DNA from: Halorubrum sp. CBA1125
Lineage (GTDB): Archaea > Halobacteriota > Halobacteria > Halobacteriales > Haloferacaceae
DNA: 47,890 nucleotides
NCBI RefSeq assembly: GCF_009742825.1
Contig: NZ_WPCE01000003.1
Span: 1 to 47,890, forward strand
Reading direction: 5' to 3'
Both the position numbers and the translations under genes were made by a program. Below, piece by piece: positions 3,666-34,157 of this stretch. The notes below the pieces were generated by a model. That model was not told the origin of the DNA, did not search any database, and saw only the letters and a list, made by a program, of their open reading frames with translations. The first letter of the stretch is position 1. Every line of letters starts with the position of its first letter.

Positions 3666-4640
3666 CTAGTATCGCGGCAGGATCTCGTCGGCCATCAGTT
3701 CGACGAACGCGTGTTGATCGGGGCTCGCGGAGTGTATCTCCACCTCGTCGAACCCGGCGTTTCGGGCGTCGTCGAGGGCGGTTCGGAGGTCGTCCGGATC
3801 GTCCGCTATTATCCAGCTGTCTGTCATCTCCTCGAGCGAGAGCTTCCGTCCCGCCTCCTCGATCTCCCGCGGATCCGCGATCGACTGGTCGAATCCCACG
3901 GCCTGCGGTCCCCGCCAGAACCCGACGCTCTCGAGCGCGTTCTCGTAGTCCTCGTCGTACGAGACCAGCAGCTGTTTGATGCGGCGGATGTCGTCGGGGT
4001 CGCGTCCGGCCGCTTCGGCCCCCGCTTCGAGGGCCGGCACGAGCGATTCGCGGTACCGCGCGTTGTCGACGAGCGTGAGGAACCCGTCGGCGTACTCGCC
4101 GGCGACCCGGGTCGTCTTCGGCCCGTTACCGGCGACGTACAGCGGAACCCGCTCGTCCGGGCGCGTGTACAGGTTGAGCGAGTTCGTCTCCCAGTAGTGG
4201 CCCTCGTAGTCGACGACCTCGCCGTCCCAGAGCCGAGTGATGATCTCGCACGCGTCGACCAACCGCCGTCGACGCTCGGGGTACGCGGGCCACTCGTACC
4301 CGAGCGGCACTTCGTTCATCGCCTCGCCCGTGGACAGCGCGAGGTGGACTCGCCCGGGGTACATCGCGCCCAACGTCGCGAACGCCTGTGCGATCATCCC
4401 CGGGTGGTAGCGTCCGATCGGAGGGGTGACGCCCGTACCGATGCGGACCGAGTCCGACCGTTCGAGCGCCGCCCCCAACCACGGCCACGCGGCGCCGCAG
4501 TGCGCGTCCGTGTGCCACCAGGGGTGGATGTGATCGCTCGTCCAGACGGTGTCGAACCCGGCCCCCTCGGCCAGCGACACGTGTTCCAGTAGCGTACTGG
4601 GGTCGTACTCCTCGTGAGCGGTGAACAAACCGATGTCCAT
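3666..4640 (-). CDS. F420-dependent sugar dehydrogenase (Fgd-like, LLM class)
   Basis: A 324-residue luciferase-like TIM barrel that aligns along its whole length with F420-dependent glucose-6-phosphate dehydrogenase (Fgd1). Conserved features are SDHIHPWWH (His37 and Trp41, matching Fgd1 His40 and Trp44), STGEAMNE (Glu105, matching the proton donor Glu109), an N-terminal Glu near residue 10 and IAQAFATLGAMYPGR. By my recollection of Fgd1, its three glucose-6-phosphate phosphate ligands Lys198, Lys259 and Arg283 are replaced here by about Asn, Asp and Ser. I therefore infer a non-phosphorylated sugar substrate oxidised at C1 to a lactone with coenzyme F420. The gene is divergent from the lactonase-RLP-kinase-oxidoisomerase cluster, sharing a 118-nt promoter region, which suggests it supplies the first step. 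Family assignment is firm; the substrate is not. Confidence 0.85.
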   Translation of the reverse strand: MDIGLFTAHEEYDPSTLLEHVSLAEGAGFDTVWTSDHIHPWWHTDAHCGAAWPWLGAALERSDSVRIGTGVTPPIGRYHPGMIAQAFATLGAMYPGRVHLALSTGEAMNEVPLGYEWPAYPERRRRLVDACEIITRLWDGEVVDYEGHYWETNSLNLYTRPDERVPLYVAGNGPKTTRVAGEYADGFLTLVDNARYRESLVPALEAGAEAAGRDPDDIRRIKQLLVSYDEDYENALESVGFWRGPQAVGFDQSIADPREIEEAGRKLSLEEMTDSWIIADDPDDLRTALDDARNAGFDEVEIHSASPDQHAFVELMADEILPRY

Positions 4641-4758: not shown

Positions 4759-5649
4759 ATGATTTGTTCGACCTGGGGCGACTGGTTCGTGTCCGACGAG
4801 ATCGAAGCGACCGATCCCGACGGCCTGTCGATCTGGTACCTCGGCTGTAACGGATTCGTCCTCCGGACCGCGGAGACGACGGTGTACATCGACCCGTACT
4901 TCGGGAACGGCAAGCCGCCGTGGACGATACGGATGATCCCCGTGCCGATGGATCCGGCCGACGCGACGATGTGTGACGCCGTCCTCGTCACCCACGAACA
5001 CATCGATCACATGCACGAGCCGTCGTTCAGACCGCTCGTCGAGAACTGCGGGGCGACGATCTGCGCGCCGGAGGCCTCCTACGAGAACCCCGATCTCGAA
5101 CTGGAACACGAGGTTCCCGCCGAGCAGAAGCGGGTCATCCGCGCCGGCGACACGCTCCAGATCGGCGACCTGACCGTCCACGTTCGGGGCGGAAACGACC
5201 CCGACGCGATCGAAGAGGTCTCCTACGTCGTCGAACACGAGTCGGGGACGTTCTTCAACGGCGGAGACAGCCGGCCGACCGAGGCGTTCTACGATATCGG
5301 CGAGGAGTTCGACATCGACGTCGGCTCGCTCACGTTCGGGACCGCCGGACGCATTCATCATCAAGACGAGGACGAGACGCGCGTCGAGCGGTGGTACAGC
5401 GACGAGAACGACGTCGTCGAGATGGCCACCGCCCTCCAGCTGGATCGGCTCCTCCCCTGCCACCACGACATGTGGAAAGGGGTGCGCGGTGACCCGACGT
5501 CGCTCTTCCAGCACGCGGCGTCGTTCGAGTACCCGACGACGATCGAACCGGTCCAGATCGGAGACCGCGTCACCGTGGGCTCGCCGGGGATCGCCTCGCT
5601 CCGGTCGATCCAAGAGGGCTGGGACGACTCGAAGCGGTGGCCCCGATGA
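4759..5649 (+). CDS. UlaG-like metallo-beta-lactamase-fold hydrolase, probable sugar lactonase
   Basis: A 296-residue protein of the MBL fold in the L-ascorbate-6-phosphate lactonase (UlaG) group. The metal site HxHxDH is visible as THEHIDHMH (residues 78-86), followed by GGDSRPTEAF and a C-terminal PCHHDMWKG. I chose the ATG at 4759 over the in-frame ATG at 4711. It aligns with the paralogue at 10499-11386 (MICSTWGD against MVHSTWGD), it fits the TATA spacing, and the earlier start would cover the palindrome. It is the first gene of a run with the RLP, kinase and oxidoisomerase genes. The best inference is hydrolysis of a sugar lactone, such as apionolactone, made by the divergent dehydrogenase. 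UlaG itself acts on a phosphorylated lactone, so specificity is unproven. Confidence 0.83.
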   Translation: MICSTWGDWFVSDEIEATDPDGLSIWYLGCNGFVLRTAETTVYIDPYFGNGKPPWTIRMIPVPMDPADATMCDAVLVTHEHIDHMHEPSFRPLVENCGATICAPEASYENPDLELEHEVPAEQKRVIRAGDTLQIGDLTVHVRGGNDPDAIEEVSYVVEHESGTFFNGGDSRPTEAFYDIGEEFDIDVGSLTFGTAGRIHHQDEDETRVERWYSDENDVVEMATALQLDRLLPCHHDMWKGVRGDPTSLFQHAASFEYPTTIEPVQIGDRVTVGSPGIASLRSIQEGWDDSKRWPR

Positions 5650-5698
5650 CGGGACACGCGACGCCCCGAACTGGGCTCAGGCACGCGGAAGCGAACAG

Positions 5699-5740
5699 CC
5701 AGACCGACGCGAGACACGACCAGACAGACGCGAGACACCG
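5699..5740 (+). repeat. Imperfect 21-bp tandem repeat between MBL and RLP genes
   Basis: Two copies of a 21-nt unit (ccagacNgacgcgagacac plus two bases) lie head to tail at 5699-5719 and 5720-5740 in the 99-nt gap before the RLP start at 5749. The gap has no clear promoter, so the repeat probably sits in the leader between two co-transcribed genes. Confidence 0.5.
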
Positions 5741-5748
5741 AGAGACAC

Positions 5749-7023
5749 ATGTCACGGTTTAAAGCGACCTACCGAATCGAAACGTCGCACTCGCTCGAGG
5801 AAGCGGCGGAATCGATGGCGGGCGAGCAGTCTTCCGGAACGTTCGTCGACGTTCCGGGCGAAACCGACGAACTGCGCGAGCGACACGGCGCGCGCGTCGC
5901 GCGCGTCACCGAACTCGACACGGTCGACGAGCCGACGCTTCCCGGATCCTCCCCCCCTGACGATGTCGACGAACCCGAGTCGTACACGCGCGCCGAGATC
6001 GACCTCTCCTTCCCGATGAGGAACGTCGGTTCCTCGCTGCCGAACCTGCTGACGACCGTCGCGGGCAACCTGTTCGAACTCAGTCCGTTTTCCGGGCTCC
6101 GCCTGCTGGACATCGACGTTCCGGCGGCGCTGGCCGACGCCTACCCCGGTCCCCAGTTCGGCATCGAAGGGACCCGCGAGATCGTCGATGTCTGGGACCG
6201 CCCGATCGTGGGGACGATCGTCAAACCCAACGTGGGCCTCTCACCGCAGGAGACTGCCGACCTCGTCGAGACGCTGGTCGACGCCGGACTCGACTTCATC
6301 AAAGACGACGAACTGATCGCCGACCCGCCGTACTCCCCCGTGGAAGACCGGATCGAGGCCGTGATGGACGTTATCCACCGTCACGAGGACCGGACGGGCG
6401 AGAAGGTCATGTACGCCTGTAACATCACCGGCGACGTCGACGAGATGCTCGCGCGCCACGACGTCGTGAAGGAGGCCGGGGGCAACTGCGTGATGGTGAG
6501 CGTCAACAGCGTGGGACTCACCGGCCTCACCGAACTCCGGCGCCACGCTGACCTCCCGATCCACGCTCACCGGAACGGCTGGGGAGCCCTCTCGCGCTGC
6601 CCGCAGCTCGGGTTCGAGTACGCGGCCTACCAGAAGTTCTGGCGCCTCGCCGGCGTCGATCACATGCACGTCAACGGGATCCGCAACAAGTTCTGTGAGT
6701 CCGACGAATCGGTGATCAGGTCGGCGCGGACGTGTCAGACCCCTATCGTCGACGAGGGCGACACCGTGATGCCCGTCTTCTCTTCGGGCCAGTGGGCGGG
6801 ACAGGCCCCCGAAACTTACGAGGCGCTCGGCAACGTCGACTGCATGTACCTCGCCGGCGGCGGCATTCTCGGCCACCCCGACGGGCCAGCCGCGGGCGTC
6901 GAACACCTCAAGCAGGGCTGGGAGGCCGCCATGCGGGGCATCCCACTCGAGGAGTACGCCGAGGATCACGAGGAGCTTCGACGGGCGATCGACCACTACG
7001 GCCCCGTCGGGAGTGGTCGCTGA
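5749..7023 (+). CDS. oiaX: RuBisCO-like protein, probable 3-oxo-isoapionate-4-phosphate transcarboxylase/hydrolase
   Basis: A 424-residue RuBisCO large-subunit homologue. Residues matching the RuBisCO active site are visible: Lys159 (VKPN, position 175), Lys185-Asp187-Glu188 (IKDDE, the carbamylated Lys and Mg ligands 201/203/204), His272 and His274 (IHAHRNG), HVNG at 307-310, Lys314 (loop-6 position 334), SSGQWAG, and GGGILGHPDGPAAG (phosphate binding). The second Lys of the usual KPK motif is Asn. The next two genes encode a DUF1537 kinase and an ApnO-type oxidoisomerase, which matches the bacterial OiaX pathway, where the RLP converts 3-oxo-isoapionate 4-phosphate to 3-phosphoglycerate and glycolate. 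There is no mtn-type methionine-salvage neighbour, so an MtnW role is unlikely. The stop overlaps the kinase start (TGATG), implying translational coupling. RLP identity is very secure; the exact reaction is inferred from context. Confidence 0.85.
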   Translation: MSRFKATYRIETSHSLEEAAESMAGEQSSGTFVDVPGETDELRERHGARVARVTELDTVDEPTLPGSSPPDDVDEPESYTRAEIDLSFPMRNVGSSLPNLLTTVAGNLFELSPFSGLRLLDIDVPAALADAYPGPQFGIEGTREIVDVWDRPIVGTIVKPNVGLSPQETADLVETLVDAGLDFIKDDELIADPPYSPVEDRIEAVMDVIHRHEDRTGEKVMYACNITGDVDEMLARHDVVKEAGGNCVMVSVNSVGLTGLTELRRHADLPIHAHRNGWGALSRCPQLGFEYAAYQKFWRLAGVDHMHVNGIRNKFCESDESVIRSARTCQTPIVDEGDTVMPVFSSGQWAGQAPETYEALGNVDCMYLAGGGILGHPDGPAAGVEHLKQGWEAAMRGIPLEEYAEDHEELRRAIDHYGPVGSGR

Positions 7024-8423
7024 TGTCCGACCTCCTGCTCGCCTTCTACGGGGACGACTTCACCGGTTCGACCGACGTCCTGGAGTCGCTGAGCCTCAAC
7101 GGGGTGCCGACCGTCCTCTTCCTCGAGTCGCCGGATCCGGAGGACCTGGAGCGTTTCGACGAGGTGCGGGCGGTCGGGATCGCGGGGACCAGTCGGAGCA
7201 TGACTCCCGACGAGATGGGCGAGGAGTTGCCGGCCGCGTTCGAAGCGCTGCGAGCGTTCGACGCGGAGATCGTTCAGTACAAGGTGTGTTCGACCTTCGA
7301 CTCGGCGCCGGACACGGGGAGCATCGGTCGGGCCATCGACATCGGTCAGGAGGTGTTCGGCTCGCCGTTCGTTCCCGTGGTCGTCGCCGCTCCCTCGCTC
7401 GAACCGCGGGGGCGGTACGTGCTGTTCGGCAACCTCTTCGCGACGCTCGAGGGGACCACCTACCGTCTCGATCGCCATCCCACGATGAGTCAACATCCCG
7501 TGACGCCGATGACGGAGGCGGATCTCACCGAACACCTGAGCGAGCAGACCGACCGGGAGATCGGCCTACTGGACGTCCGAAGCGTCGACGGAAACGCGGA
7601 CGCAGCGCTCCGGGACGACCTCGAGACGGTCGTCGCGGACAACGAGATCGTGTTCTTCGACGGCCTCAACCGCGATCACCAGCGAAAAGTCGGCCGCCTG
7701 ATCTGGGAGTACTGTGAGCGTGACGGTCGTGCCGACCCCCTATTCTCGGCGGCATCGTCGGGGCTCAACTACGCCCTCTCACGGCACTGGCAGGACACCG
7801 GCGTCGTATCCGTCCCCGAGGCGCCCGAGTCGGCGGGTCCGGTGGATCAGATCGTCGTGATGTCGGGGAGCGCTTCGCCCGTCAACCGCGATCAGATAGA
7901 CTGGGCGCTGGAGAACGGATTCGAAGGTGTCCGACTCGACACCCGCCGTCTGGTGGACCCCGACGAGGCCGAAGACGCGCGCGAGGAGGCGATCGACGCC
8001 GCGCTGACCGCGATCGACGACGGCGCGAGCTCGCTCCTGTACTCAGCGCGGGGACCCGACGATCCGGCGATCGAGCGAACGAACCAGCGCCTTCGCGAGC
8101 TGGACGTCGACGGTGAGCGTCTCGGCGCCCTGCTGGGCACCCAGCAGGGCGAGATCACCCGTGCGATCCTCGAGGCGACGGCCGTCGATCGCGTCTGCGT
8201 CGCCGGCGGCGACACCAGCGGCCACGTCGCTCCACACCTCGACGTCTTCGCACTCGAGTTTCTCGTCCCCGTCGGGCCCGGGAGCCCGCTGTGTCGGGCG
8301 GCCTCGCGGACCCAGGCGTTCGACGGACTGGAGATCGCTCTCAAGGGCGGACAGGTCCAGACGACCAACGACGAGGCGGACTTCTTCGGCGCGGTCCGGG
8401 CCGGCGGCGTTCCCCCCGAGTGA
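7023..8423 (+). CDS. oiaK: DUF1537 sugar-acid kinase, probable 3-oxo-isoapionate kinase
   Basis: A 466-residue four-carbon-acid-sugar kinase family protein. The N-terminal domain (about 1-230) carries the substrate motif GDDFTGSTD at residues 10-18 and HPVTPMTEADL. The C-terminal nucleotide-binding domain (about 265-455) carries SGSASPVN and GGDTSGHV. The ATG at 7023 overlaps the stop of the RLP gene by one base, so the two are almost certainly translated together. DUF1537 kinases phosphorylate threonate, erythronate or 3-oxo-isoapionate. The RLP and ApnO-type neighbours favour 3-oxo-isoapionate, giving the 4-phosphate used by the RLP. No PdxA2- or Otn-type partner that would point to a tetronate pathway is present. 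Confidence 0.85.
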   Translation: MSDLLLAFYGDDFTGSTDVLESLSLNGVPTVLFLESPDPEDLERFDEVRAVGIAGTSRSMTPDEMGEELPAAFEALRAFDAEIVQYKVCSTFDSAPDTGSIGRAIDIGQEVFGSPFVPVVVAAPSLEPRGRYVLFGNLFATLEGTTYRLDRHPTMSQHPVTPMTEADLTEHLSEQTDREIGLLDVRSVDGNADAALRDDLETVVADNEIVFFDGLNRDHQRKVGRLIWEYCERDGRADPLFSAASSGLNYALSRHWQDTGVVSVPEAPESAGPVDQIVVMSGSASPVNRDQIDWALENGFEGVRLDTRRLVDPDEAEDAREEAIDAALTAIDDGASSLLYSARGPDDPAIERTNQRLRELDVDGERLGALLGTQQGEITRAILEATAVDRVCVAGGDTSGHVAPHLDVFALEFLVPVGPGSPLCRAASRTQAFDGLEIALKGGQVQTTNDEADFFGAVRAGGVPPE

Positions 8424-8487
8424 TCGCCGACCCCCTCGACTCCCTCCGGCGAAACTACTATTACACTTCACGGAGTGGCATGTGACA

Positions 8488-9336
8488 ATGGCCGTCTCGG
8501 TTACTCTCATGGGCGCCGGTGGCAAGATGGGGTGTCGGATCACCGACCGACTCAAGGACAACGACCGCTACGAGATGCGATACGTCGAGCCCGGCGAGCA
8601 AGGGCGCGAGCGACTCGCCGATCGGGGGCTCTCCGCGCAGTCGACGGACGCGGCGCTCGACGGGACTGACATCGTTGTGATGGCCGTCCCCGACGAACTG
8701 ATCGGGTCGATCACCGACGACGTCGTCCCGAAGGTGGACAGCGGTACGATGATCGTCCTGCTCGACCCCGCGGCCGCCTACGCCCGCGTACTCCACGACC
8801 GCGAGGACGTCACGTACTTCCTCACGCATCCGTGTCACCCCTCGTTTTTCACCGCTGAGACGAGCATGGACGACGAGGACACCGACTGGTTCGGCGGGCA
8901 AGGCCGCGACCGGCAGGATATCGTCTGTGCGCTCCACCAGGGGTCGGACGACGAGTATTCGAAGGGAGAGGCGATCGCACGGGACATGTACGCGCCCGTT
9001 CGGGACGCCCACCGGGTGACGACCGAGCAGATGGCCCTCCTCGAACCCGCACTCGTCGAGACGCTCCTGGGTACCTGCCTCGACGTCATCTGCGACGGCT
9101 ACGAACGCGTCGTCGAGATGGGCGTTCCCGAGGACGCCGCGCGGGCGATGCTGTTCGGCCACCTGCGCATCGAACTGGGGATAACCTTCGGGTACACCGA
9201 CTTCCCGTTCTCCGACGGCGCCCAACAGGCCATCGAGAACGCCAAAAAGGAGATCTTCCAGCCCGACTGGGAAGATCGGGTGTTCGGGACCCAGAACGTA
9301 CGGGAGAGCGCCGAAATGATTGCCGACGCCGACTAG
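8488..9336 (+). CDS. apnO: ApnO-type oxidoisomerase, probable D-apionate oxidoisomerase
   Basis: A 282-residue Rossmann-fold dehydrogenase related to 6-phosphogluconate and hydroxyisobutyrate dehydrogenases. The nucleotide-binding loop LMGAGGKMG is at residues 7-15. Family-typical blocks are VAVP-type strand ends (VVMAVPDE), THPCHPSFF, DIVCALHQG, APVRDAHRVTTEQMALLEPAL and FGHLRIELGI. These match the bacterial ApnO group, which oxidises and rearranges D-apionate to 3-oxo-isoapionate with NAD. The ATG at 8488 places the glycine-rich loop at the expected distance. The gene follows the kinase by 64 nt on the same strand and completes the ApnO-OiaK-OiaX set. Family recognition is from memory of conserved blocks; the substrate is inferred. 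Confidence 0.8.
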   Translation: MAVSVTLMGAGGKMGCRITDRLKDNDRYEMRYVEPGEQGRERLADRGLSAQSTDAALDGTDIVVMAVPDELIGSITDDVVPKVDSGTMIVLLDPAAAYARVLHDREDVTYFLTHPCHPSFFTAETSMDDEDTDWFGGQGRDRQDIVCALHQGSDDEYSKGEAIARDMYAPVRDAHRVTTEQMALLEPALVETLLGTCLDVICDGYERVVEMGVPEDAARAMLFGHLRIELGITFGYTDFPFSDGAQQAIENAKKEIFQPDWEDRVFGTQNVRESAEMIADAD

Positions 9337-10072
9337 CGTCCGGTCGCGGAATCGGAAGGCGAGACCGCGACGGGATGGACTCGGCACCCGATCCTTCAGG
9401 CCCCCGTTGTTGACGGGACGTCCGCCTCACCGACTCTCCGTGGTGGATCGGCTATCGTGTATCGTGAGTGCGGACACTCCGAGAGACCGCCGACGTGGAC
9501 GTGCGTCTCCGCCTGAACGATTATCGCTTTCGAATACTATATAGAACGTTGAAATATCGGTTGAGAGCGTGAGTTCGAATCTCGTTGGGATGGGCAAAAC
9601 GGTGGATCGGATAGTCGCCGATCGATACCTGTCCGGTGCAGTCGATCCACGATCGATTCAACTTCTCTACGAATATCCCGACAATTGACACGGTTCACCT
9701 CGGTAGACCACCGATGACGATCACACATGTCGACTAGTCGGTGGAGCTCGGTGGTCGTCTCCCGGCGACACTCGGGTCTCAGACTCCACTCCCGGGGTAC
9801 CTCCAGGGGAAACAGATGCGTTGTCGAACGTATCTTTCGAGCGGCCAATCGTCGAACATGACTGATAACAAACTAGAACGCGACGCGAACTCTCACCGCC
9901 TCCGCGAGCGGGCAAGGAGCCGACACTCGCTGCCCAGGAGCTATCGACCACGACGCTAGAGGGGGAAAAGCGTCGCTGGCGTCGGTCCGAACGGCGGGCT
10001 GCTGTTTGGTAACCTCTCGTAACTCGATATTGTTCGGTAACTACTAAGTCGACCGAGTTCCTCTCTGGGCGT
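9337..10072. other. Gene-free stretch upstream of the HxlR gene
   Basis: These 736 nt hold only short reading frames of arginine-rich, unrecognisable composition. The sequence is GC-rich to about 9520, then more AT-rich around 9521-9560. Just before the HxlR gene, GGTAAC occurs at 10008-10013 and 10036-10041, with a related CGTAAC at 10018-10023. These could be regulator contacts. Confidence 0.5.
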
Positions 10073-10456
10073 ATGTCGGACCAGACCGACTCGGACGATT
10101 CCATCCGCGAACTCGAAGTCTGGTGTGCCGGCGAGGAGTGGTGTCCGGTGACGACCACGGCCACGCTCATCGGGAAGAAGTGGCACCCGGTCATCATCCA
10201 TCGGCTCCTCGAACACGGTCCCAGCGGGTTCAACGACCTCAAGACGGCCGTCGACGGGATCTCGAGTAAGGTCCTCTCGGACAGCCTCGACGACCTCGCG
10301 GAGAACGACCTCGTCGAGCGAGAGGTCGTAAGCGAGAAACCGTTTCGAGTCCAGTACTCGCTGACTCCTCACGGCCAATCGCTGGAACCGGTGATCGACG
10401 CGATGCGCGACTGGGGGATGCAACACCTGACGGCGCCCGCCGATGCAGATCCGTGA
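10073..10456 (+). CDS. HxlR family winged-helix transcriptional regulator
   Basis: A 127-residue protein with a single HxlR domain. CPVTTTATLIGKKWHPVII (about residues 24-42) is the family signature with the conserved Cys, and the HTH and wing follow at about 50-95 (GFNDLKTAVDGISSKVLSDSL, then LVEREVV and YSLTPHGQSL). HxlR proteins often sense redox or electrophile stress, or control nearby catabolic genes. It converges on the second MBL gene, from which it is separated by 42 nt. Repeated GTAAC motifs lie 30-65 nt upstream of its start. The target is unknown. Confidence 0.88.
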   Translation: MSDQTDSDDSIRELEVWCAGEEWCPVTTTATLIGKKWHPVIIHRLLEHGPSGFNDLKTAVDGISSKVLSDSLDDLAENDLVEREVVSEKPFRVQYSLTPHGQSLEPVIDAMRDWGMQHLTAPADADP

Positions 10457-10498
10457 TCGCGTTCCGCGCCTAACGACGTGAGAACCCCACCACGGGAC

Positions 10499-11386
10499 TC
10501 AGTGTTCACCGAGATTTCGCATCGGTTCGATACCGGGCTCTCGAACGGTCAGCCTATCACCGACCTCCGCCACCTCGAGAACCCGCGGGTAGGCGAACGA
10601 CGCCATGTGTTCGTGGATGGACTTCGCGTCCGCTAACCCTCCCTTCCACATGTCGAAGTGGCACGGGACGAGGCGATTCAACTGGAGTGCGTTCGCCGAC
10701 TCGACCACGTCGTTTTCGTCCATGTACATCTTTCCGGGTTCCGCGTGCGGTTCCTCGTCTTCTGTGATCCAGTCGCCGGTGTAGAAGATCCGCGCGTGTG
10801 TCCCGAACGCAAGCGCGCCCAAATCGATATCGAACTCGCTGCCGATCTCGTCGAATGCGTCGGCAACCCGGCTGTCGCCCGCCGTAAAGAAGGTGCCCGT
10901 CTCGTGCTCGACGACGTACGAGACGTCGCCCGCCGCGTCCGGATCGTTACTCTCTCGGACGTGAACCGTGAGGTCGCCGATGTCGAACGAGGCGCCCGGT
11001 TCGACTATTTGCCGCCGGGATTTCGGTGCCCGCAGGTCGGGATAGTCTATCTGCGGCGATTCGAAACAGGTCGAGGACGCGTACAAGTCCGCGCCTAGGT
11101 CTTCCACCATCGGCCCGTACGAATCGGGGTTGAAGTGGTCGACGTGCTCGTGGGTGGCGAGCACGGCGTCGCAGGCGGTAACGTCTTCCGGATCCAGCGG
11201 AACGGGGATCATCCGATACCACGTGGGCGGATCCCCGTCACCGAAGTACGGGTCGACGTAGATCGTCGCTTCGGGCGATCGAAGCACGAACCCGTTACAG
11301 CCGAGGTACCAGACGGTCAGACAGTCCGGCGTGGTCGCCTCAATTTCTTGCTTGAGGAACGTGTCTCCCCATGTCGAGTGGACCAT
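10499..11386 (-). CDS. UlaG-like MBL-fold hydrolase, second copy
   Basis: A 295-residue paralogue of the protein at 4759-5649, similar along its whole length. It has STWGD, WYLGCNGFVLR, IDPYFG-like YVDPYFGDG, the metal motif THEHVDHFN, AGDSRVADAF, YMDENDVVE and PCHFDMWKG. A longer start at 11401 exists, but the ATG at 11386 aligns with the paralogue. Its distance from the RLP cluster (about 5 kb) and its own convergent HxlR gene suggest separate control, so it may act on a different lactone or be a duplicate undergoing specialisation. It is probably a metal-dependent, cytosolic lactonase. The substrate is not known. Confidence 0.82.
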   Translation of the reverse strand: MVHSTWGDTFLKQEIEATTPDCLTVWYLGCNGFVLRSPEATIYVDPYFGDGDPPTWYRMIPVPLDPEDVTACDAVLATHEHVDHFNPDSYGPMVEDLGADLYASSTCFESPQIDYPDLRAPKSRRQIVEPGASFDIGDLTVHVRESNDPDAAGDVSYVVEHETGTFFTAGDSRVADAFDEIGSEFDIDLGALAFGTHARIFYTGDWITEDEEPHAEPGKMYMDENDVVESANALQLNRLVPCHFDMWKGGLADAKSIHEHMASFAYPRVLEVAEVGDRLTVREPGIEPMRNLGEH

Positions 11387-11483: not shown

Positions 11484-12518
11484 TCATCCCAATTCGACCG
11501 TTTCGACGTATCGGAGACAGGATTCCAGTCCCTCATTCGCCGTGTAACGGACCGTTTCGGACTCGGCGTCATACCGAATGATACCGGCTTCTTGGAGCTT
11601 TGGGAGGTGGATGTGGTGAAGTTCGGTCCGGATCTGCTCGCGTGGCGATCCGTCGCGGATCGGCAGTGATCGATCGATATCGTGAACTTCCTCGACCAGT
11701 CGATCGAGCTGGATCTCCTCTGTCGGCTGGCCCTTCAAGTTGTACAACAGCGTGCGCCGGCGGGGGGACGACAACAGTTCCAGTATCGTATCGAAAGAGT
11801 ACCGCATCGGCACCGTTTCGGGGCGGTCCGGATCTGTCTTCGCCGCTCCGCCTGGGGGTGGCGTCGTCGAACGGAACGTGGGTGTCGTCGTTATCTCACC
11901 TTCCGTTGGGATCCAGCCATCGTCCGGAGTGTACTCGATCACCGCATCGTACAGCGGGCGAAGCATCGTTATCGTCTCTTCGTCGTGTTCGTCCGGATCG
12001 ACGTGATGGTGAGCGGTCACGTCGAGCTGCTCACAGAGGGCGTTGAGGGAGGTGATCAGGCTAATTACTCGCTCGGTGTCGTAGGTGGCAAGCAGCGTCG
12101 TTACCGAGTGGAAGCACACGACCGTCTCTTCGTCGGTGTGTTTCCACGCACCAAGTTGGCTGGCGACAGCGAGACCGACATCGTAGAGGTCCGCATTCTC
12201 AGGAACTCCACGCACCGAGATCGACCCCGCTTCGGAGGTCGGGAGCTTGGCTTTCGTCATATCTCGTCTTGCGTCGACGATCGTCGCCCGTGCTGGAAGT
12301 TCGCTGCCAGCTTCGCGTTGCCAGACCGACAGCCGCTCTGTGGGAGACGCCGAGAGTGTGATGCTCAATACGTTGGTCTCTCCGGGCGGATTGCGAGTCA
12401 ACAGATCGATACAAGCACTGTCGTCGGGAAATTCGTGTGAAGGAGCAAGGAGAAGAACAGACGACGACCTGCCAAAATAATCGTTGAGTCTGTATGGCGA
12501 ACCTGACACTGCCGGCAT
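11484..12518 (-). CDS. Haloarchaeal DUF7504/DUF7344-like regulatory protein
   Basis: A 344-residue protein in two parts. The N-terminal half (about 15-215) resembles the RecA-like DUF7504 family seen in halobacteria, with strands such as SSVLLLAPS and VVCFHSVTTLLATYD but no canonical Walker A. The C-terminal part (about 240-335) is a winged-helix domain of the DUF7344 type (ILELLSSPRRRTLLYNL and LHHIHLPKLQEAGII). This pairing is common in halobacteria and is thought to be regulatory; no specific role is known. The gene stands alone on the minus strand. The inverted repeat tgtaa-ctgaa-ttaca lies at 12521-12535, just upstream of the start. Confidence 0.75.
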   Translation of the reverse strand: MPAVSGSPYRLNDYFGRSSSVLLLAPSHEFPDDSACIDLLTRNPPGETNVLSITLSASPTERLSVWQREAGSELPARATIVDARRDMTKAKLPTSEAGSISVRGVPENADLYDVGLAVASQLGAWKHTDEETVVCFHSVTTLLATYDTERVISLITSLNALCEQLDVTAHHHVDPDEHDEETITMLRPLYDAVIEYTPDDGWIPTEGEITTTPTFRSTTPPPGGAAKTDPDRPETVPMRYSFDTILELLSSPRRRTLLYNLKGQPTEEIQLDRLVEEVHDIDRSLPIRDGSPREQIRTELHHIHLPKLQEAGIIRYDAESETVRYTANEGLESCLRYVETVELG

Positions 12519-12520
12519 TC

Positions 12521-12535
12521 TGTAACTGAATTACA
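12521..12535. promoter_or_regulatory. Short inverted repeat at the DUF7504-like gene start
   Basis: The sequence tgtaa-ctgaa-ttaca forms a perfect 5-5-5 inverted repeat ending 3 nt from the start codon at 12518. It lies between the start and an A/T-rich stretch that could hold the TATA box (about 12536-12545). The position suits an operator for autoregulation, but the arms are short. Confidence 0.3.
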
Positions 12536-12540
12536 TAAGT

Positions 12541-12850
12541 TTGTCGTTCACCCTACACTTTGTCAAACATGACCAATCACGTTCGGAAATGTCTACCATT
12601 CCTCAAAATCCAATCACAACGAACCGGATCTGTTGAAATTCTCAATAGGCCATATGTTCTGACCGAATGAAGAAAATATGGAAAATTACTGAATGTATGG
12701 CTCTTTATCTCTTCTAACGGAGAAAAATACTGCAAAGTATCTCCTCTTTAGAGTAGATCTGATATCAATCTACGTAGCGCTGGATTCACAACGTATTGCT
12801 TACTAAAGTTCCCAAGATCAGTGTAACCATCCTTGTCCATTGGGCGTTTG
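12541..12850. other. AT-rich gene-free segment, possible insertion scar
   Basis: About 310 nt of clearly lower GC than the flanking genes, with no reading frame of note. It separates the DUF7504-like gene from what looks like the 5'-truncated end of a membrane-protein gene. This suggests DNA was inserted or deleted here. No complete transposase or paired terminal repeats were found inside it. Confidence 0.45.
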
Positions 12851-21189: not shown

Positions 21190-21978
21190 TCAGATGATCT
21201 GCCAGCCGCCGTCGACGGTCAGGAGTTCGCCGGTCACGTACGAGGCGGCGTCACTCGCCAGGAACAGCGCGGCCGGCGCTACCTCGTCGGGGTGGCCCGC
21301 GCGGCCCATCGGTACGGGCTTGATAAACTCGTCTTGTTCGGCGCCCTCGGTCGCCTCTTCCGTCCATCCCTCGACCATCTCCGTCGCGGTCTGTCCCGGG
21401 GCGACGGCGTTGACCCTGATTCCGTGCTTCGCGAGCTCGAGCGCGCTGCCGCGCGTGACCATCCGGACCGCACCCTTCGTCGCGTCGTAGTGAACCTGAT
21501 TGAACTGTGCGAGGTGTGAGCTGGTCGAGGCCGTGTTGACGATCGTCCCCGGACTCTCGCGGTCGAGCATGTCGTTGGCCGCGGCTTGACAGCCGAAGAA
21601 CACCCCTTTGACGTTGACCTCGAAGATGCGGTCGAACTGTTCGGGGTCCAGCTCGCGCATCGGACTCGACATGATCATGCCGGCGTTGTTGACCATCACG
21701 TCGAGGCCACCGAACTCACGCGCGGCCTCGACCACAGATTCGATTTCGGACGGTTCGCTCACGTCGGTTTCCACGTAGTGACCGTCTCCAGCGGTTTCGG
21801 TTATTCGCTCGTGCGTGGGCGTGTTTGCGTTGACGTCTTTCGGTTCCTCGTCGACGTCTGCGTTGATCACCGTTGCACCGGCACGGCCAAACGCGAGCGC
21901 AATCGCCCGACCGATTCCGGAACTCGCTCCCGTCACGATCACCGTCTCATCACTAAAGTCGAAAGTGAGCGATCCCAT
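21190..21978 (-). CDS. SDR family oxidoreductase
   Basis: A 262-residue classical short-chain dehydrogenase. The cofactor loop is TGASSGIGRAI (residues 17-27), and the acidic NADVDEE after the second strand suggests NAD preference. NNAGMI, the catalytic Ser in NTASTSSH, and the YxxxK pair in HYDATK are present, and the protein ends in the family-typical YVTGELLTVDGGW. Substrate classes for such SDRs include sugar alcohols, aldonates and sugars. It converges on the MITE-like element and is divergent from the next SDR gene, with about 217 nt between them. It is only distantly related to the three other SDR genes in the window. Confidence 0.88.
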   Translation of the reverse strand: MGSLTFDFSDETVIVTGASSGIGRAIALAFGRAGATVINADVDEEPKDVNANTPTHERITETAGDGHYVETDVSEPSEIESVVEAAREFGGLDVMVNNAGMIMSSPMRELDPEQFDRIFEVNVKGVFFGCQAAANDMLDRESPGTIVNTASTSSHLAQFNQVHYDATKGAVRMVTRGSALELAKHGIRVNAVAPGQTATEMVEGWTEEATEGAEQDEFIKPVPMGRAGHPDEVAPAALFLASDAASYVTGELLTVDGGWQII

Positions 21979-29357: not shown

Positions 29358-30401
29358 TTACTCGCGGAGGACGGAGACGTCGAAGAGGGGCTTGCAGGTA
29401 CCGCCCGCGAGGAACGTCTCGAACGCCTCGTCGGCCTCCAACAGACTGAACCGCTCGTCGAGGAACGTCGCGTGATCGACGTCGCCTGAGTCGATCAGCC
29501 GGAGCGAACGCTCGAAGTCCTCGTACATCGAGGCGTACGAGCACTGGAGGTCGATCTCCGCGCGCACGAGCGGCGAGTAGGGCATCGTCGTCTCCCCGGT
29601 CTGGCCCACCAGGACGATCTGTCCGCCCTTGCGGACCTCGTCGACGGCCATCGTCAGCCCCGACGGGTGACCGGTCGTGTCGAAGACGACGTCGTAGCCC
29701 ACGCCGTCGGTCAGCGCGTCCCGACGGACCTCGAGGTCGTCGGCCTCGACGTTGATCGTTTCGAACCCGAGGTCCTCCGCGAGCGGCAGACGGTACTCCG
29801 CGTCCTGCCCGACGCCGGCGACGACGACCTCGCCGCCCTGAGCCCGCGCGATCTGCGCCGTGAGCTGTCCGATCGGACCCGGTCCGGCGACCATCACCCG
29901 GTCGCCCGGCCCGACGCGTGAGTTCTGGATCACGGCGCGCGCTCCGATGCTCGTCGGTTCGACGAGCGCGGCGTGTTTCGGTTCGACGCTGTCGGGGACC
30001 GGGTGGAGCGCCGTCTCCGGGACCGCGATGTATCCCTCGTAGGCCCCGTCGTGGTCCACGCCGGTTATCACGGCGTTTTGACACACGTTCTCCTCCCCGA
30101 TTTCACACTGGTAACAGTCGCCGCAGCCGCGGATCGGCCGCTCGACGACGCGATCGCCGACCGAGAACTTCGTCACGCCCTCGCCGGTCTCGACGATCCG
30201 TCCGGTGTACTCGTGACCGATGACGGTCGGGAGGTCCATCCGCTCGAACGCCGATTCGAACTCGTAGATCCCCGCGTCGCTGCCGCAGAGTCCCGCGTAG
30301 TCGACCTCGATCAGTGCCTCTCCCGGCCCGGGCTCCGGTCGGTCGCGGTCGACGATCTCCATGGCACCGTGGGTTCGACTGGTCTTGGCTAATCCACGCA
30401 T
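29358..30401 (-). CDS. Zinc-dependent alcohol / sugar-alcohol dehydrogenase (MDR family)
   Basis: A 347-residue medium-chain dehydrogenase. The catalytic zinc ligands are in GLCGSD and GHEYTG, the four-Cys structural zinc lobe in GCGDCYQCEIGEENVC, and the NAD loop in VAGPGPIGQL. The start at 30401 (MRGLAKTS) is preferred over the upstream one at 30488, since that would add an unusual basic leader and cover the promoter. TATA-like gttataatac is at 30422-30431. Similar enzymes oxidise sorbitol, threonine, L-fuconate-like or other polyols. It is divergent from the XacA-like gene, so both may serve the same sugar pathway under shared control. Confidence 0.87.
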   Translation of the reverse strand: MRGLAKTSRTHGAMEIVDRDRPEPGPGEALIEVDYAGLCGSDAGIYEFESAFERMDLPTVIGHEYTGRIVETGEGVTKFSVGDRVVERPIRGCGDCYQCEIGEENVCQNAVITGVDHDGAYEGYIAVPETALHPVPDSVEPKHAALVEPTSIGARAVIQNSRVGPGDRVMVAGPGPIGQLTAQIARAQGGEVVVAGVGQDAEYRLPLAEDLGFETINVEADDLEVRRDALTDGVGYDVVFDTTGHPSGLTMAVDEVRKGGQIVLVGQTGETTMPYSPLVRAEIDLQCSYASMYEDFERSLRLIDSGDVDHATFLDERFSLLEADEAFETFLAGGTCKPLFDVSVLRE

Positions 30402-30431
30402 ACTCGCGAGTATCCTGCGACGTATTATAAC
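30400..30431. promoter_or_regulatory. Palindromic operator and TATA box, divergent promoter
   Basis: atactcgcgagtat at 30400-30413 is a perfect 14-bp palindrome that touches the start codon of the zinc dehydrogenase gene (30401, minus). The minus-strand TATA box (gttataatac) is at 30422-30431, so the palindrome sits where transcription should begin, a typical repressor site. The XacA-like gene on the plus strand has a tttttta run at about 30497-30503, 26-32 nt before its ATG. Confidence 0.5.
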
Positions 30432-30528
30432 TCCTGTGGAGCGGGTCGGATCGGGTTCGATCTCTCCCCAGGGAAAGATGTGCGGCACCCACTGGGTTTT
30501 TTTACCGGTCGAGTCGGTAGCTGATCAC

Positions 30529-31608
30529 ATGCTGGAGTGGATAGACGGATACGAGGATCGCACGTGGCAGACGACTACCGACGGCACCGTCAGGTACGCC
30601 CTGATCGGGTTGGGATGGTGGACGCTTGACGTCGCCCTCCCGGCGATCGAGTCCTCGGATCTCGGCGAGGTCAGCGTCCTCGTCAGCGGTTCACACGAGA
30701 AGGCCGAGCGGTTGGCCGAGGAACACGGGGTCACCACGGGCATCAGTTACGAGGCGTTTCACGACGGGGCCGCGAGCGAGGCGTACGACGCCGTCTACGT
30801 CGGAACGCCGAACGCGTTCCACCTCGAGTACGCCGAGACTGCGGCCCGACTGGACAAGGCCGTGCTCTGTGAGAAGCCGATGGAGGCCACCGTCGACCGC
30901 GCCGAGCGGCTCGTCGAGGCCTGCGAAGCCGGCGACGTCCCGCTGATGATCGCCTACCGGATGCACACGGAACCGGCGGTTCAACGCGCTCGCGAACTGA
31001 TCGCCGACGGCTTCCTCGGCGAACCGGTCTCGGTGTACGGTCACAACAGCCAGCCGCTCTTGGAGATGATACCCGACCCCGATCAGTGGCGACTCGATCC
31101 GGATCTCACCGGATACGGCGCCTCGGTGATGGATCTGGGGATCTACTCGATAAACACCACGCGGTACCTCCTCCGGCGCGAGCCCGTGACCGTCCAGTCG
31201 CGAATGACCTCGGACCACGAGGCGTTCGGCGACGTGCCGGACCAGTGTGCGTCCTCGCTGTTCCGACTCGAGGGCGACGTGCAGATGATCTCGACTTCGA
31301 GCCAACACGCACAGGAGGACACACACCTCAAGATCACCGGCACGGAGGGACAGATCGACCTCCGCCCGGCGTTCCACGGGGAGTGTTCGCTGCGCCTCTC
31401 GCGCGGCGACGTCTCGGTGACGGTCGAGCACGCGTCCTTCGACGCCGAACGGGAAATGCGCGAGGAGTTCGACTACTTCGCCGACCGGCTGCTCGGGAAC
31501 GAGACGATCTACCCCGACGGTCGACACGGCCTGCAAGATATGCGGATCATCGAAGCCGTCCACGAGTCGGCCGAACGCGGCGAATCGGTCGACATCGATC
31601 CGGTCTGA
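30529..31608 (+). CDS. XacA/Gfo6-like D-xylose (sugar) 1-dehydrogenase
   Basis: A 359-residue Gfo/Idh/MocA dehydrogenase very like haloarchaeal D-xylose 1-dehydrogenase (XacA/Gfo6) in length and layout. It has the N-terminal extension MLEWIDGYEDRTWQ, the Rossmann region YALIGLGWWTLDVALPAI, VSGSHEKAERLAEEHGV, the catalytic CEKPMEATVDRAERLVEAC, AYRMHTEPAVQRARELI and YGASVMDLGIYSINTTRYLL. It should oxidise an aldopentose at C1 with NADP to the lactone. The ATG at 30529 gives the XacA-type start. In Haloferax this enzyme starts the oxidative xylose/arabinose route, whose later enzymes (XacB-E) are not in this window. The exact sugar is unproven. Confidence 0.85.
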   Translation: MLEWIDGYEDRTWQTTTDGTVRYALIGLGWWTLDVALPAIESSDLGEVSVLVSGSHEKAERLAEEHGVTTGISYEAFHDGAASEAYDAVYVGTPNAFHLEYAETAARLDKAVLCEKPMEATVDRAERLVEACEAGDVPLMIAYRMHTEPAVQRARELIADGFLGEPVSVYGHNSQPLLEMIPDPDQWRLDPDLTGYGASVMDLGIYSINTTRYLLRREPVTVQSRMTSDHEAFGDVPDQCASSLFRLEGDVQMISTSSQHAQEDTHLKITGTEGQIDLRPAFHGECSLRLSRGDVSVTVEHASFDAEREMREEFDYFADRLLGNETIYPDGRHGLQDMRIIEAVHESAERGESVDIDPV

Positions 31609-32033: not shown

Positions 32034-33161
32034 TCAGAACCGCTCCAGATAGGCATCGACGAAGTCGGCGAGGTCGGCGTGTGTGGGCGGTTCGGCGGTC
32101 CGGACGAAGTGACCGGCGACGGCGTTGCCGAGCACCACGGCGGCCTCGGCGTCGAGCCCTTCGAGTAACGCGAGCACGAGGCCGACGTTGAAATGATCGC
32201 CCGCGCTCGTGGTCAGTTCCGGGTCGGACGTCCGGGGGACCTGTGCCCGACCGGTCGATTCCGCCGTCACGACGACGGACTCCTCGGCGCTGTGGGCGGC
32301 GAATCGGGAGACGCCCAGTGCCTCCCGGACGCGTTCGGCCGTCTCCCGGAGATCGCGGCCCGGTTCCGCGACACCGCTCAGTTCGGCTATCGCGGTCGTC
32401 TCGGACCGATTCGCGGAGACCGTGACCGGAACGGCCCCGTCGAGCGCTCGTATCGACTCGACGCCCCTCCGGAACCGATCGCGATCCAGATCGCCGATGT
32501 CCGCGGGATCGACGAGCAGGTGCGACGGTGGCTCCGACAGCGACGGCAGGAGGTCCGTCCGGATGCCGTCGAGAACCGACGGGAAATCGCCGATTTCGGC
32601 CCAGTACCCGATCCCGAACAGGTCCCGACCGTCCGCGAGGTCGACCAGGCGATCGAGGTCGACCCGTTCTCGGAGGTAGTGCCAGTCGAGCGCGCCGATC
32701 GACCCGGAGTCGACCAGGAATACCTTCCCGTCCACGAACTCGATCGCGTCCACCACGCCTGGTTCGCCGATCGAGACTAGCTCCGCCGGGTCGACGTCGC
32801 GGCGGAAGATATCCTCGGGCGGTTCCCCGAACATGCCGACCATCGCCGGTTCGTACCCCAGGCGACCCGTCCCTCGCGCGAGGTGACACGCGTGACCGCC
32901 CGTACGCGTCCCCGTCTGGTCCCACTCGATGATGATCGAACGTTCCATCTCGCCAGCCTCGAGAATTTCGGTCCCCATCGACGAGACCGTTCGATCGGTC
33001 TCCCGGGCGTCGTCGTTCACTCCTTCGACGATTTCCCTGATTCGGTCGATGTATCCGTCGAACCCGAAGAGGAGCTCCGCCGAGGCGATCGCGTCGGGGA
33101 ACTGATCGCGACACGAACGTACCGCCGACGTGGTATCGGCGTCGGGCGTTCCAGATTTCAT
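32034..33161 (-). CDS. PfkB family sugar kinase
   Basis: A 375-residue kinase of the ribokinase/PfkB superfamily. The N-terminal part has FGFDGYIDRIREIV and GGHACHLARGTGRLGYEPAMVG, matching the first PfkB signature. The C-terminal catalytic motif is TTSAGDHFNVG (about residues 327-337), with Asp as the expected base. It is longer than typical ribokinase, and the acceptor sugar is not obvious. It is divergent from a DhnA-type aldolase gene across 186 nt. I infer that it makes a phosphorylated ketose or deoxy-sugar acid for that aldolase, for example L-ribulose 1-phosphate from the AraA product. KDG-kinase or ketohexokinase roles are alternatives. Confidence 0.8.
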   Translation of the reverse strand: MKSGTPDADTTSAVRSCRDQFPDAIASAELLFGFDGYIDRIREIVEGVNDDARETDRTVSSMGTEILEAGEMERSIIIEWDQTGTRTGGHACHLARGTGRLGYEPAMVGMFGEPPEDIFRRDVDPAELVSIGEPGVVDAIEFVDGKVFLVDSGSIGALDWHYLRERVDLDRLVDLADGRDLFGIGYWAEIGDFPSVLDGIRTDLLPSLSEPPSHLLVDPADIGDLDRDRFRRGVESIRALDGAVPVTVSANRSETTAIAELSGVAEPGRDLRETAERVREALGVSRFAAHSAEESVVVTAESTGRAQVPRTSDPELTTSAGDHFNVGLVLALLEGLDAEAAVVLGNAVAGHFVRTAEPPTHADLADFVDAYLERF

Positions 33162-33347
33162 ACGGTGTACATCGGCGTAAGGCTACAAAAAAACTCTCCG
33201 GCGACCTGGGCCGACTCGCCGCCTCGATCGAGGAGGCGATCCGGTGACACACCGGATCGATCGTCTCTCGTGTCGCCGTTGGTGTCTGTCTGCGAGCACG
33301 TTACCATAAATTTACAACGGCCACCCCTGAACTACGTATCGGATACG

Positions 33348-34157
33348 ATGACCGACTACGATCTACTCGCGACAGAATCGGGGAACGCCGTCGTGGTGGC
33401 GATGGACCACGGACTGGCACTGGGCGCCGCCGAGGGGTTCGAGAACCCGGGACAGACGCTCTCGACGGTACTCCAGAGCGACCCCGACGGCGTGCTCGTC
33501 GGGCCACACTTCGCGCGCCGGTTCCGCGATCAGCTGGTCGACGCGGACGTCGACGTCGTACTCACGGCCGATGTCGTGACCTTCTCTCGTCACCCCGGCC
33601 TCAACGAGGGCGAGACCGTCTGGACGCCGGCGTTCGACACGGAGCTGCTTTTGGACCTGGACCCCGCCGGCGTCAAGGCGTTGCTCGTGTTCGGGCGCGA
33701 AGACCCCGACATGTACCAGCGCAACATCGAGTACGTCGCCTCGCTCGCCGAGGAGCTACGGGGAACTGGCGTACCGTTCGTGGTCGAACCGGTGCTGTGG
33801 GGACCGCGCGTCCCGGACCAGTTCGAGGTCGACCCGGACTTGGTCGCGAACGCACAGCGGATGGCCTGGGAGTACGGCGCGGACATCCTCAAAGCGCCCT
33901 ACACGGGCACTCCCGACTCCTTCAGTGAGATCGTCGACAACTCGCCCGTGCCGCTCATGATTCTCGGCGGCCCCGCCTCGGGATCGACACGAGCCATGCT
34001 ACAGGACGTCGCCGAGGCGATCGAAGCGGGGGCACGCGGAGTGATGATCGGTCGGTCGATCTGGCAGACCGACGATCCGGCCGCGGTCGTCTCGGCGATG
34101 AACGAGATCGTCCACGAGGGTGCGAGCGTCGACGCGGTCTGGGACGACTCATCGTAA
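33348..34157 (+). CDS. DhnA/LsrF-type class I aldolase
   Basis: A 269-residue TIM-barrel protein of the DeoC/LacD/DhnA group. It has the early AMDHGLALG block, VEPVLWGP, the Schiff-base Lys in ADILKAPYTG (about residues 184-193), the phosphate-binding ILGGPASG and MIGRSIWQ. Members cleave or form C-C bonds of phosphorylated sugars, including archaeal class I fructose-bisphosphate aldolase, LsrF and ADH synthase. The divergent PfkB kinase suggests a kinase/aldolase pair. With AraA in the same island, cleavage of a ketose 1-phosphate to dihydroxyacetone phosphate and an aldehyde is attractive but unproven. The ATG at 33348 gives the normal length. It could instead be a second fructose-bisphosphate aldolase. 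Confidence 0.83.
   Translation: MTDYDLLATESGNAVVVAMDHGLALGAAEGFENPGQTLSTVLQSDPDGVLVGPHFARRFRDQLVDADVDVVLTADVVTFSRHPGLNEGETVWTPAFDTELLLDLDPAGVKALLVFGREDPDMYQRNIEYVASLAEELRGTGVPFVVEPVLWGPRVPDQFEVDPDLVANAQRMAWEYGADILKAPYTGTPDSFSEIVDNSPVPLMILGGPASGSTRAMLQDVAEAIEAGARGVMIGRSIWQTDDPAAVVSAMNEIVHEGASVDAVWDDSS

Follow-up and report, generated by a model that had tools for sequence, protein, structure and literature searches.

Two UlaG-like metallo-hydrolases of a Halorubrum gene cluster as candidate lactonases for unphosphorylated aldonolactones

The window analysed here is a stretch of 47,890 nucleotides of haloarchaeal DNA from Halorubrum sp. CBA1125 (contig C1 of genome G000, from an assembly that is 84% complete). 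It encodes two UlaG-like metallo-beta-lactamase-fold (MBL) proteins, MBL1 (4759..5649, plus strand; 296 aa, start MICSTWGDWF) and MBL2 (10499..11386, minus strand; 295 aa, start MVHSTWGDTF), both of which are candidate aldonolactonases. The two are 54% identical across 294 residues (E = 7e-117) and are thus true paralogues whose resemblance is not due to chance. A first-pass annotation, made from the sequence alone, had paired them by length, by the STWGD motif near the start, by an HxHxDH site and by a C-terminal PCHxDMWKG, and all of these are indeed present in both (HEHIDH and HEHVDH; PCHHDMWKG and PCHFDMWKG); the pair stands as two real paralogous genes, although the minus-strand orientation of 10499-11386 had gone unstated. 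HxHxDH and PxHxDMWKG are common to the entire haloarchaeal UlaG-like family, including the core copies described below, and are not specific to this pair. In both proteins Pfam recognizes Lactamase_B models only (Lactamase_B_2 and Lactamase_B_3), and the SGL domain of the SMP-30 pentonolactonases (PF08450) was not found in either by the same search.

Among proteins of solved structure, the closest in sequence to MBL1 and MBL2 are 3bv6, from Vibrio, and UlaG (2wyl). In a VIA comparison, an AlphaFold2 model of MBL1, built from a 23-row alignment (mean pLDDT 80.7, pTM 0.85), matches UlaG (2wyl/2wym) and 3bv6 at Z 31.1–31.3 over 268–274 residues, the next match being at Z 24.4, and Foldseek ranks 1–12 are all occupied by UlaG or 3bv6. 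Sequence and predicted structure therefore bear out the first-pass assignment to UlaG-like proteins, and by the modelled fold, which is nearest to that of UlaG, MBL1 and MBL2 are members of the UlaG-like (UlaGL) metallo-hydrolase family. Residues H79, H81, D83, H84, D170 and H235 (MBL1 numbering) are invariant across the 23 sequences, and the predicted metal ligands are accordingly those of HxHxDH together with Asp170 and His235; the pocket geometry is left uninterpreted because model confidence is low near the metal site, at residues ~50–58 and 81–85. The two proteins resemble Escherichia coli UlaG, an L-ascorbate-6-phosphate lactonase, in near-full-length fold, in HxHxDH, GD(S/T) and PxHxDxW, and in the lactone-opening reaction proposed here, but they are only ~25% identical to it, shorter than its 360-residue chain, surrounded by other genes and, as proposed, active on an unphosphorylated substrate. 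A 2011 survey (PMC3219644) reports that halophilic UlaG-like members lack the hexamerisation termini; its section 8 describes the same haloarchaeal family, with lineage-specific duplications, as having one shared origin and assigns it no function, whereas the present analysis separates a core gene from a catabolic clade and proposes a role for the latter.

This separation emerges from the family tree. A homologue of MBL1 occurs in 189 of the 195 genomes of the order. Of these, 29 genomes other than the window's have a copy of 59% identity or higher, and 28 of their 29 short loci also carry a homologue of the window's SDR gene (21190-21978) or Gfo gene (30361-31608). In a maximum-likelihood tree of 67 sequences, from which four rows sharing 97% or more identity with another row had been removed and whose bootstrap is not fully settled, MBL1 and MBL2 lie inside a catabolic clade of 49 rows (support 100/99), within which a subgroup of 19 rows (support 99/98) comprises the copies linked to Gfo6. 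The near-universal core copies fall outside, as does a third paralogue of the window genome (contig C40, 4652-5539), which branches with them. The core gene adjoins dph2, a gene of diphthamide synthesis, at most of its loci (L128–L140 and the C40 copy), a Diphthamide_syn gene lying within 3 kb at 11 of the 16 core loci scored. With dph2 rather than sugar genes as its neighbour, the core paralogue was rejected as a functional model; another core neighbour had been considered as hisG, which Pfam did not bear out, giving it no family. Farther afield, a ~25%-identical bacterial relative on a plasmid of Thermomicrobium roseum (L142:3956-4792) follows MR_MLE and sugar ABC transporter genes.

The neighbourhoods of the two kinds of copies were contrasted at 47 catabolic loci outside the window and 16 core-type loci; neither MBL1 and MBL2 nor two bacterial outgroups are counted among these. 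The core loci consist of 13 hand-picked from the family survey, the C40 copy and two plasmid loci, and were scored with the same query set as the catabolic ones; some genomes entered under two loci, and only near-identical MBL rows had been removed. A gene of a dehydrogenase family (Gfo, SDR, LLM or extended SDR) lies within 3 kb at 44 of the 47 catabolic loci as compared with one of the 16 core loci (Fisher p = 1e-10), an MR_MLE dehydratase at 27/47 versus 1/16 (p = 3e-4) and an aldehyde dehydrogenase at 21/47 versus 1/16. The lone core locus that has all three (L146) is a plasmid copy in a region of inositol genes. The first-pass annotation had proposed sugar-lactone chemistry and held that MBL neighbours ruling it out would refute the idea; the outcome was the opposite, since sugar dehydrogenases and aldonate dehydratases are what the surrounding genes encode.

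Individual clusters illustrate the pattern. A complete Weimberg set surrounds the MBL gene in Haloarcula japonica (L084: FAA hydrolase, aldehyde dehydrogenase, Gfo6 dehydrogenase, MBL, MR_MLE dehydratase and nucleoside hydrolase) and on a plasmid of Halorussus vallis (L114: alpha-glucuronidase, GH3, MBL, aldehyde dehydrogenase, D-xylose 1-dehydrogenase Gfo6, MR_MLE and FAA hydrolase), with no SMP-30 protein annotated in the fetched stretch of the latter. On plasmid pHTUR02 of Haloterrigena turkmenica (L144), the gene is accompanied by a pectinesterase, two MR_MLE proteins, a dihydrodipicolinate-synthase family protein, an extended-SDR oxidoreductase and an aldehyde dehydrogenase, in what looks like an oxidative uronate route, and in Natrinema gelatinilyticum nucleoside hydrolases, LLM, aldehyde dehydrogenase, MBL and FAA hydrolase genes stand together. 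In all four clusters the MBL occupies the position where a lactonase is expected. The pHTUR02 protein, 50% identical, is possibly a galactarolactone hydrolase. At another locus, L081, the Gfo6, MBL and MR_MLE genes are followed by a second Gfo gene (11575-12672) that shares 76% identity with the one at 30361-31608 in the window.

A promiscuous pentonolactonase of Haloarcula, cited as Johnsen 2020, is mentioned in PMC8551123, and PMC9795676 assigns pentonolactonases to the SMP-30 superfamily; the Haloferax volcanii and Haloarcula enzymes to which these sources refer act at the same step, between a pentose dehydrogenase and a pentonate dehydratase. At the Haloarcula japonica locus the MBL fills that slot, and it stands in the lactonase position at seven named Haloarcula Gfo6–MR_MLE loci (L083, L084, L087, L088, L092, L105 and L110). 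The Haloarcula pentonolactonase may be this MBL, and the reaction may already have been published for that genus. Equating the MBL with Haloferax XacC (HVO_B0030) was also considered but finds no support, as Gfo6 is missing from the neighbourhood of the copy in Haloferax sulfurifontis (L101) and PMC9795676 indicates an SMP-30 placement.

In the window itself, MBL1 is followed on the plus strand by genes for an OiaX-like RuBisCO-like protein (RLP) of the 3-oxo-isoapionate-4-phosphate decarboxylase family (5749..7023; NF042437, 531.7 bits), an OiaK-like four-carbon acid sugar kinase (7023..8423; NF042436, 510 bits), whose ATG overlaps the stop of the OiaX-like gene, and a PGDH_C protein (8488..9336; PF16896) that is a candidate aldonate oxidoisomerase. 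These RLP, kinase and PGDH genes bear out the earlier placement of MBL1 in an apionate-type cluster. The OiaX model is far ahead of other RuBisCO models; since the two models are the best by far but the scores lie under the cut-offs of 700 set for the OiaX and OiaK equivalogs of the bacterial oxidative apiose pathway, we use the names OiaX-like and OiaK-like. With its counterpart in the Roseibium RLP cluster the PGDH_C protein shares 41.5% identity, and it classes as ApnO-type, ApnO being the name of this family. The window cluster contains no Gfo/Idh/MocA apiose dehydrogenase, the only Gfo proteins in the window, GFO1 and GFO2, being encoded elsewhere and 23–24% identical to the Roseibium protein. 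Compared with the bacterial oxidative D-apiose pathway, for which PMC11747546 gives five activities, OiaX, the kinase and the PGDH_C protein thus have window counterparts, whereas the Gfo-type dehydrogenase and a 609-aa lactonase candidate are absent from the cluster, which has an FGD-like protein and an MBL instead. The 609-aa protein is taken as an ApnL-type lactonase because of its position next to the Gfo gene in the Roseibium cluster. An HxlR-family regulator (10073..10456, plus strand; PF01638) had been noted as MBL2's own neighbour; the gene is there, but a dedicated regulatory role is a weak proposal by coordinates, as it and MBL2 are convergent and run tail-to-tail.

The earlier inventory had missed an LLM-class oxidoreductase gene (3666..4640, minus strand) that is divergent from MBL1, with 118 bp between them. 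Its product belongs by TIGR03557 to a glucose-6-phosphate dehydrogenase-like family of F420-dependent enzymes (221.9 bits, above the cut-off of 210.4) and was aligned to FGD1 (3b4y) and Adf (1rhc). The catalytic residues of FGD1 (His40, Trp44 and Glu109) are kept as His, Trp and Glu, and opposite its three phosphate-binding residues (Lys198, Lys259 and Arg283) the alignment has Asn, a gap and Ser. The neighbourhoods of five close relatives (69–73% identity) were examined: L185 and L186 lie beside MR_MLE, FAA hydrolase and aldehyde dehydrogenase genes without Gfo6, L188 adjoins a PGDH_C protein in an OiaX genome, L187, on the same contig as L085, is near MBL and FAA hydrolase genes, and L183/L184 is on a contig with Weimberg-type genes, the MBL gene being ~17 kb off. 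LLM genes are near MBL genes at L085 and L111; the more distant relatives (61–66%, L189–L197) have no sugar-cluster pattern. The window genome also has cofD, for F420 synthesis. As judged from these neighbourhoods and the alignment, the FGD-like proteins of the window, L085, L111, L185, L186 and L188 are plausible candidates for F420-dependent dehydrogenases of free sugars, and there is an even prospect that 3666-4640 encodes the aldose 1-dehydrogenase of the window pathway. According to a 2021 review (PMC8305020), only one F420-dependent reaction has been reported for halophilic archaea and the importance of the coenzyme there is enigmatic, a question that the LLM association makes testable.

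Orthologues of OiaX occur in 10 of 392 genomes, seven of which also have PGDH_C homologues. MBL2 orthologues are found in only two of the 392, the window's included; both are among the ten with OiaX and both lie near the OiaX gene (chance probability 6e-4). The only close orthologue of MBL2 (L124; 75–76% identical, the next match being 60%) is encoded between an SDR gene and OiaX, and since its nearest relative is itself in an OiaX cluster, MBL2 probably belongs to the MBL1 cluster rather than standing apart. No homologue of the 609-aa bacterial lactonase candidate was detected in the ten haloarchaeal OiaX genomes at E 0.01, and the same query matches 236 bacterial plasmid records, mostly of Rhizobium and Sinorhizobium. 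This agrees with the first-pass idea that a UlaG-type enzyme would replace the bacterial apionolactonase, apionolactone being a candidate substrate. Several of the haloarchaeal clusters (L065:7497-8297, L124:8483-9286, L122 and L123) have a protein of ~266 aa preceding OiaX; it belongs to no Pfam family in the L065 and L124 copies and to no NCBIfam family in the L124 copy, and it was considered as a possible substitute lactonase.

On the basis of gene context and family, the MBLs of the catabolic clade are with high probability aldonolactonases in general. A sugar dehydrogenase would produce a lactone, the MBL would hydrolyse this unphosphorylated lactone to the aldonate at its predicted metal site (HxHxDH, Asp170 and His235), and for most relatives in the clade the aldonate would then enter the Weimberg route. 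In the window, the divergent FGD-like protein would be the candidate dehydrogenase, and the aldonate would pass to the ApnO-like oxidoisomerase, the OiaK-like kinase and the OiaX-like RLP; an unphosphorylated lactone fits this order, as the kinase would act after ring opening. That MBL1 and MBL2 open such lactones, with the aldonate entering an apionate-type route, we consider probable. There is an even chance that their substrate in the window is apionolactone or else a closely related lactone, branched or pentonic; the OiaX-, OiaK- and ApnO-like character of the downstream genes puts apionolactone first among the candidates. It appears that a rare plant-type sugar is broken down here with first enzymes that differ from the bacterial set. 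The most far-reaching version is tentative: an oxidative apiose-type pathway of haloarchaea whose first two steps are taken by an F420-dependent FGD-like dehydrogenase, acting on free sugar, and by a UlaG-type lactonase, both unrelated to the bacterial enzymes; a catabolic clade whose aldonolactonases serve pentoses, uronates and branched sugars in general; and a role for F420 in haloarchaeal sugar oxidation. If these proposals hold, a haloarchaeal family left without a function in the 2011 survey would gain one, a UlaG-type lactonase would act on free aldonolactones, and an archaeal RLP-based branched-sugar route would be suggested; no paper on haloarchaeal apiose degradation is among the open-literature matches listed, a coverage outside which most subscription papers fall.

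Several observations weigh against the aldonolactonase reading. The absolute neighbour frequencies lean upward because the queries were partly drawn from the same neighbourhoods (L084, L089 and the window), and SDR is a broad family. Three of the 47 catabolic loci (L066–L068) have an SMP-30 gene no more than 7 kb from the MBL gene, and one of them, L066, holds MBL1's nearest relative in the tree; another possible lactonase is encoded by an unlinked SMP-30 gene of the window genome. The clusters at L185 and L186, with LLM, MR_MLE, FAA hydrolase and aldehyde dehydrogenase genes, include no MBL in their 16-kb stretches, so that such clusters can evidently do without a linked lactonase; according to PMC9795676, moreover, slow opening of lactones takes place unaided. 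Finally, the survey of co-occurrence with RLP genes advised by the first-pass annotation, favourable as to the MBL2 orthologues, found an MBL within the fetched stretch at only two of the ten OiaX loci (the window and L124) and at none of three further annotated OiaX plasmid loci, which speaks also against an apiose-specific role.

The same observations bear on the alternatives. It is possible, if somewhat unlikely, that the MBLs are aldonolactonases in a cluster not meant for apiose, the RLP, kinase and PGDH_C proteins handling some other aldonate, either branched or of four to five carbons, with a different sugar for each of MBL1 and MBL2. The sub-threshold OiaX and OiaK scores are compatible with this, as are several haloarchaeal OiaX loci with a TRAP transporter, SDR and aldolase in place of the MBL, and the 46% difference between MBL1 and MBL2, whose nearest relatives are in different contexts; yet among the RLP models OiaX leads by a wide margin, and OiaX, the kinase and PGDH_C co-occur in both bacteria and haloarchaea. 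That the MBLs instead catalyse another reaction, on a phosphodiester or acyl-sugar side product, while SMP-30 proteins or spontaneous hydrolysis take care of the lactones, is improbable. The SMP-30 genes just mentioned would suit it, as would the housekeeping-like context of the near-universal core paralogue and the side phosphodiesterase activity that UlaG retains according to PMC3219644, but so few catabolic loci have a nearby SMP-30 gene, and the MBL tracks sugar dehydrogenases of any fold, be it Gfo, SDR, LLM or extended SDR. Least credible by far is that the MBLs are plain UlaG orthologues with L-ascorbate 6-phosphate as their substrate. UlaG is the best match in fold, and its equivalog NF008688 the best among NCBIfam models, but MBL1 and MBL2 score 87.2 and 74.7 bits against a cut-off of 306, no ula-type phosphotransferase system or UlaD/E/F family is found among the part of the window's open reading frames scanned with Pfam, and the same survey regards the UlaG-like proteins of halophiles as unrelated in function to those of bacteria.

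Elsewhere in the window, a ketohexokinase family gene and a DeoC/LacD aldolase reading frame on the opposite strand overlap (32034-33161 and 32883-34157), the start of the aldolase being probably further in.

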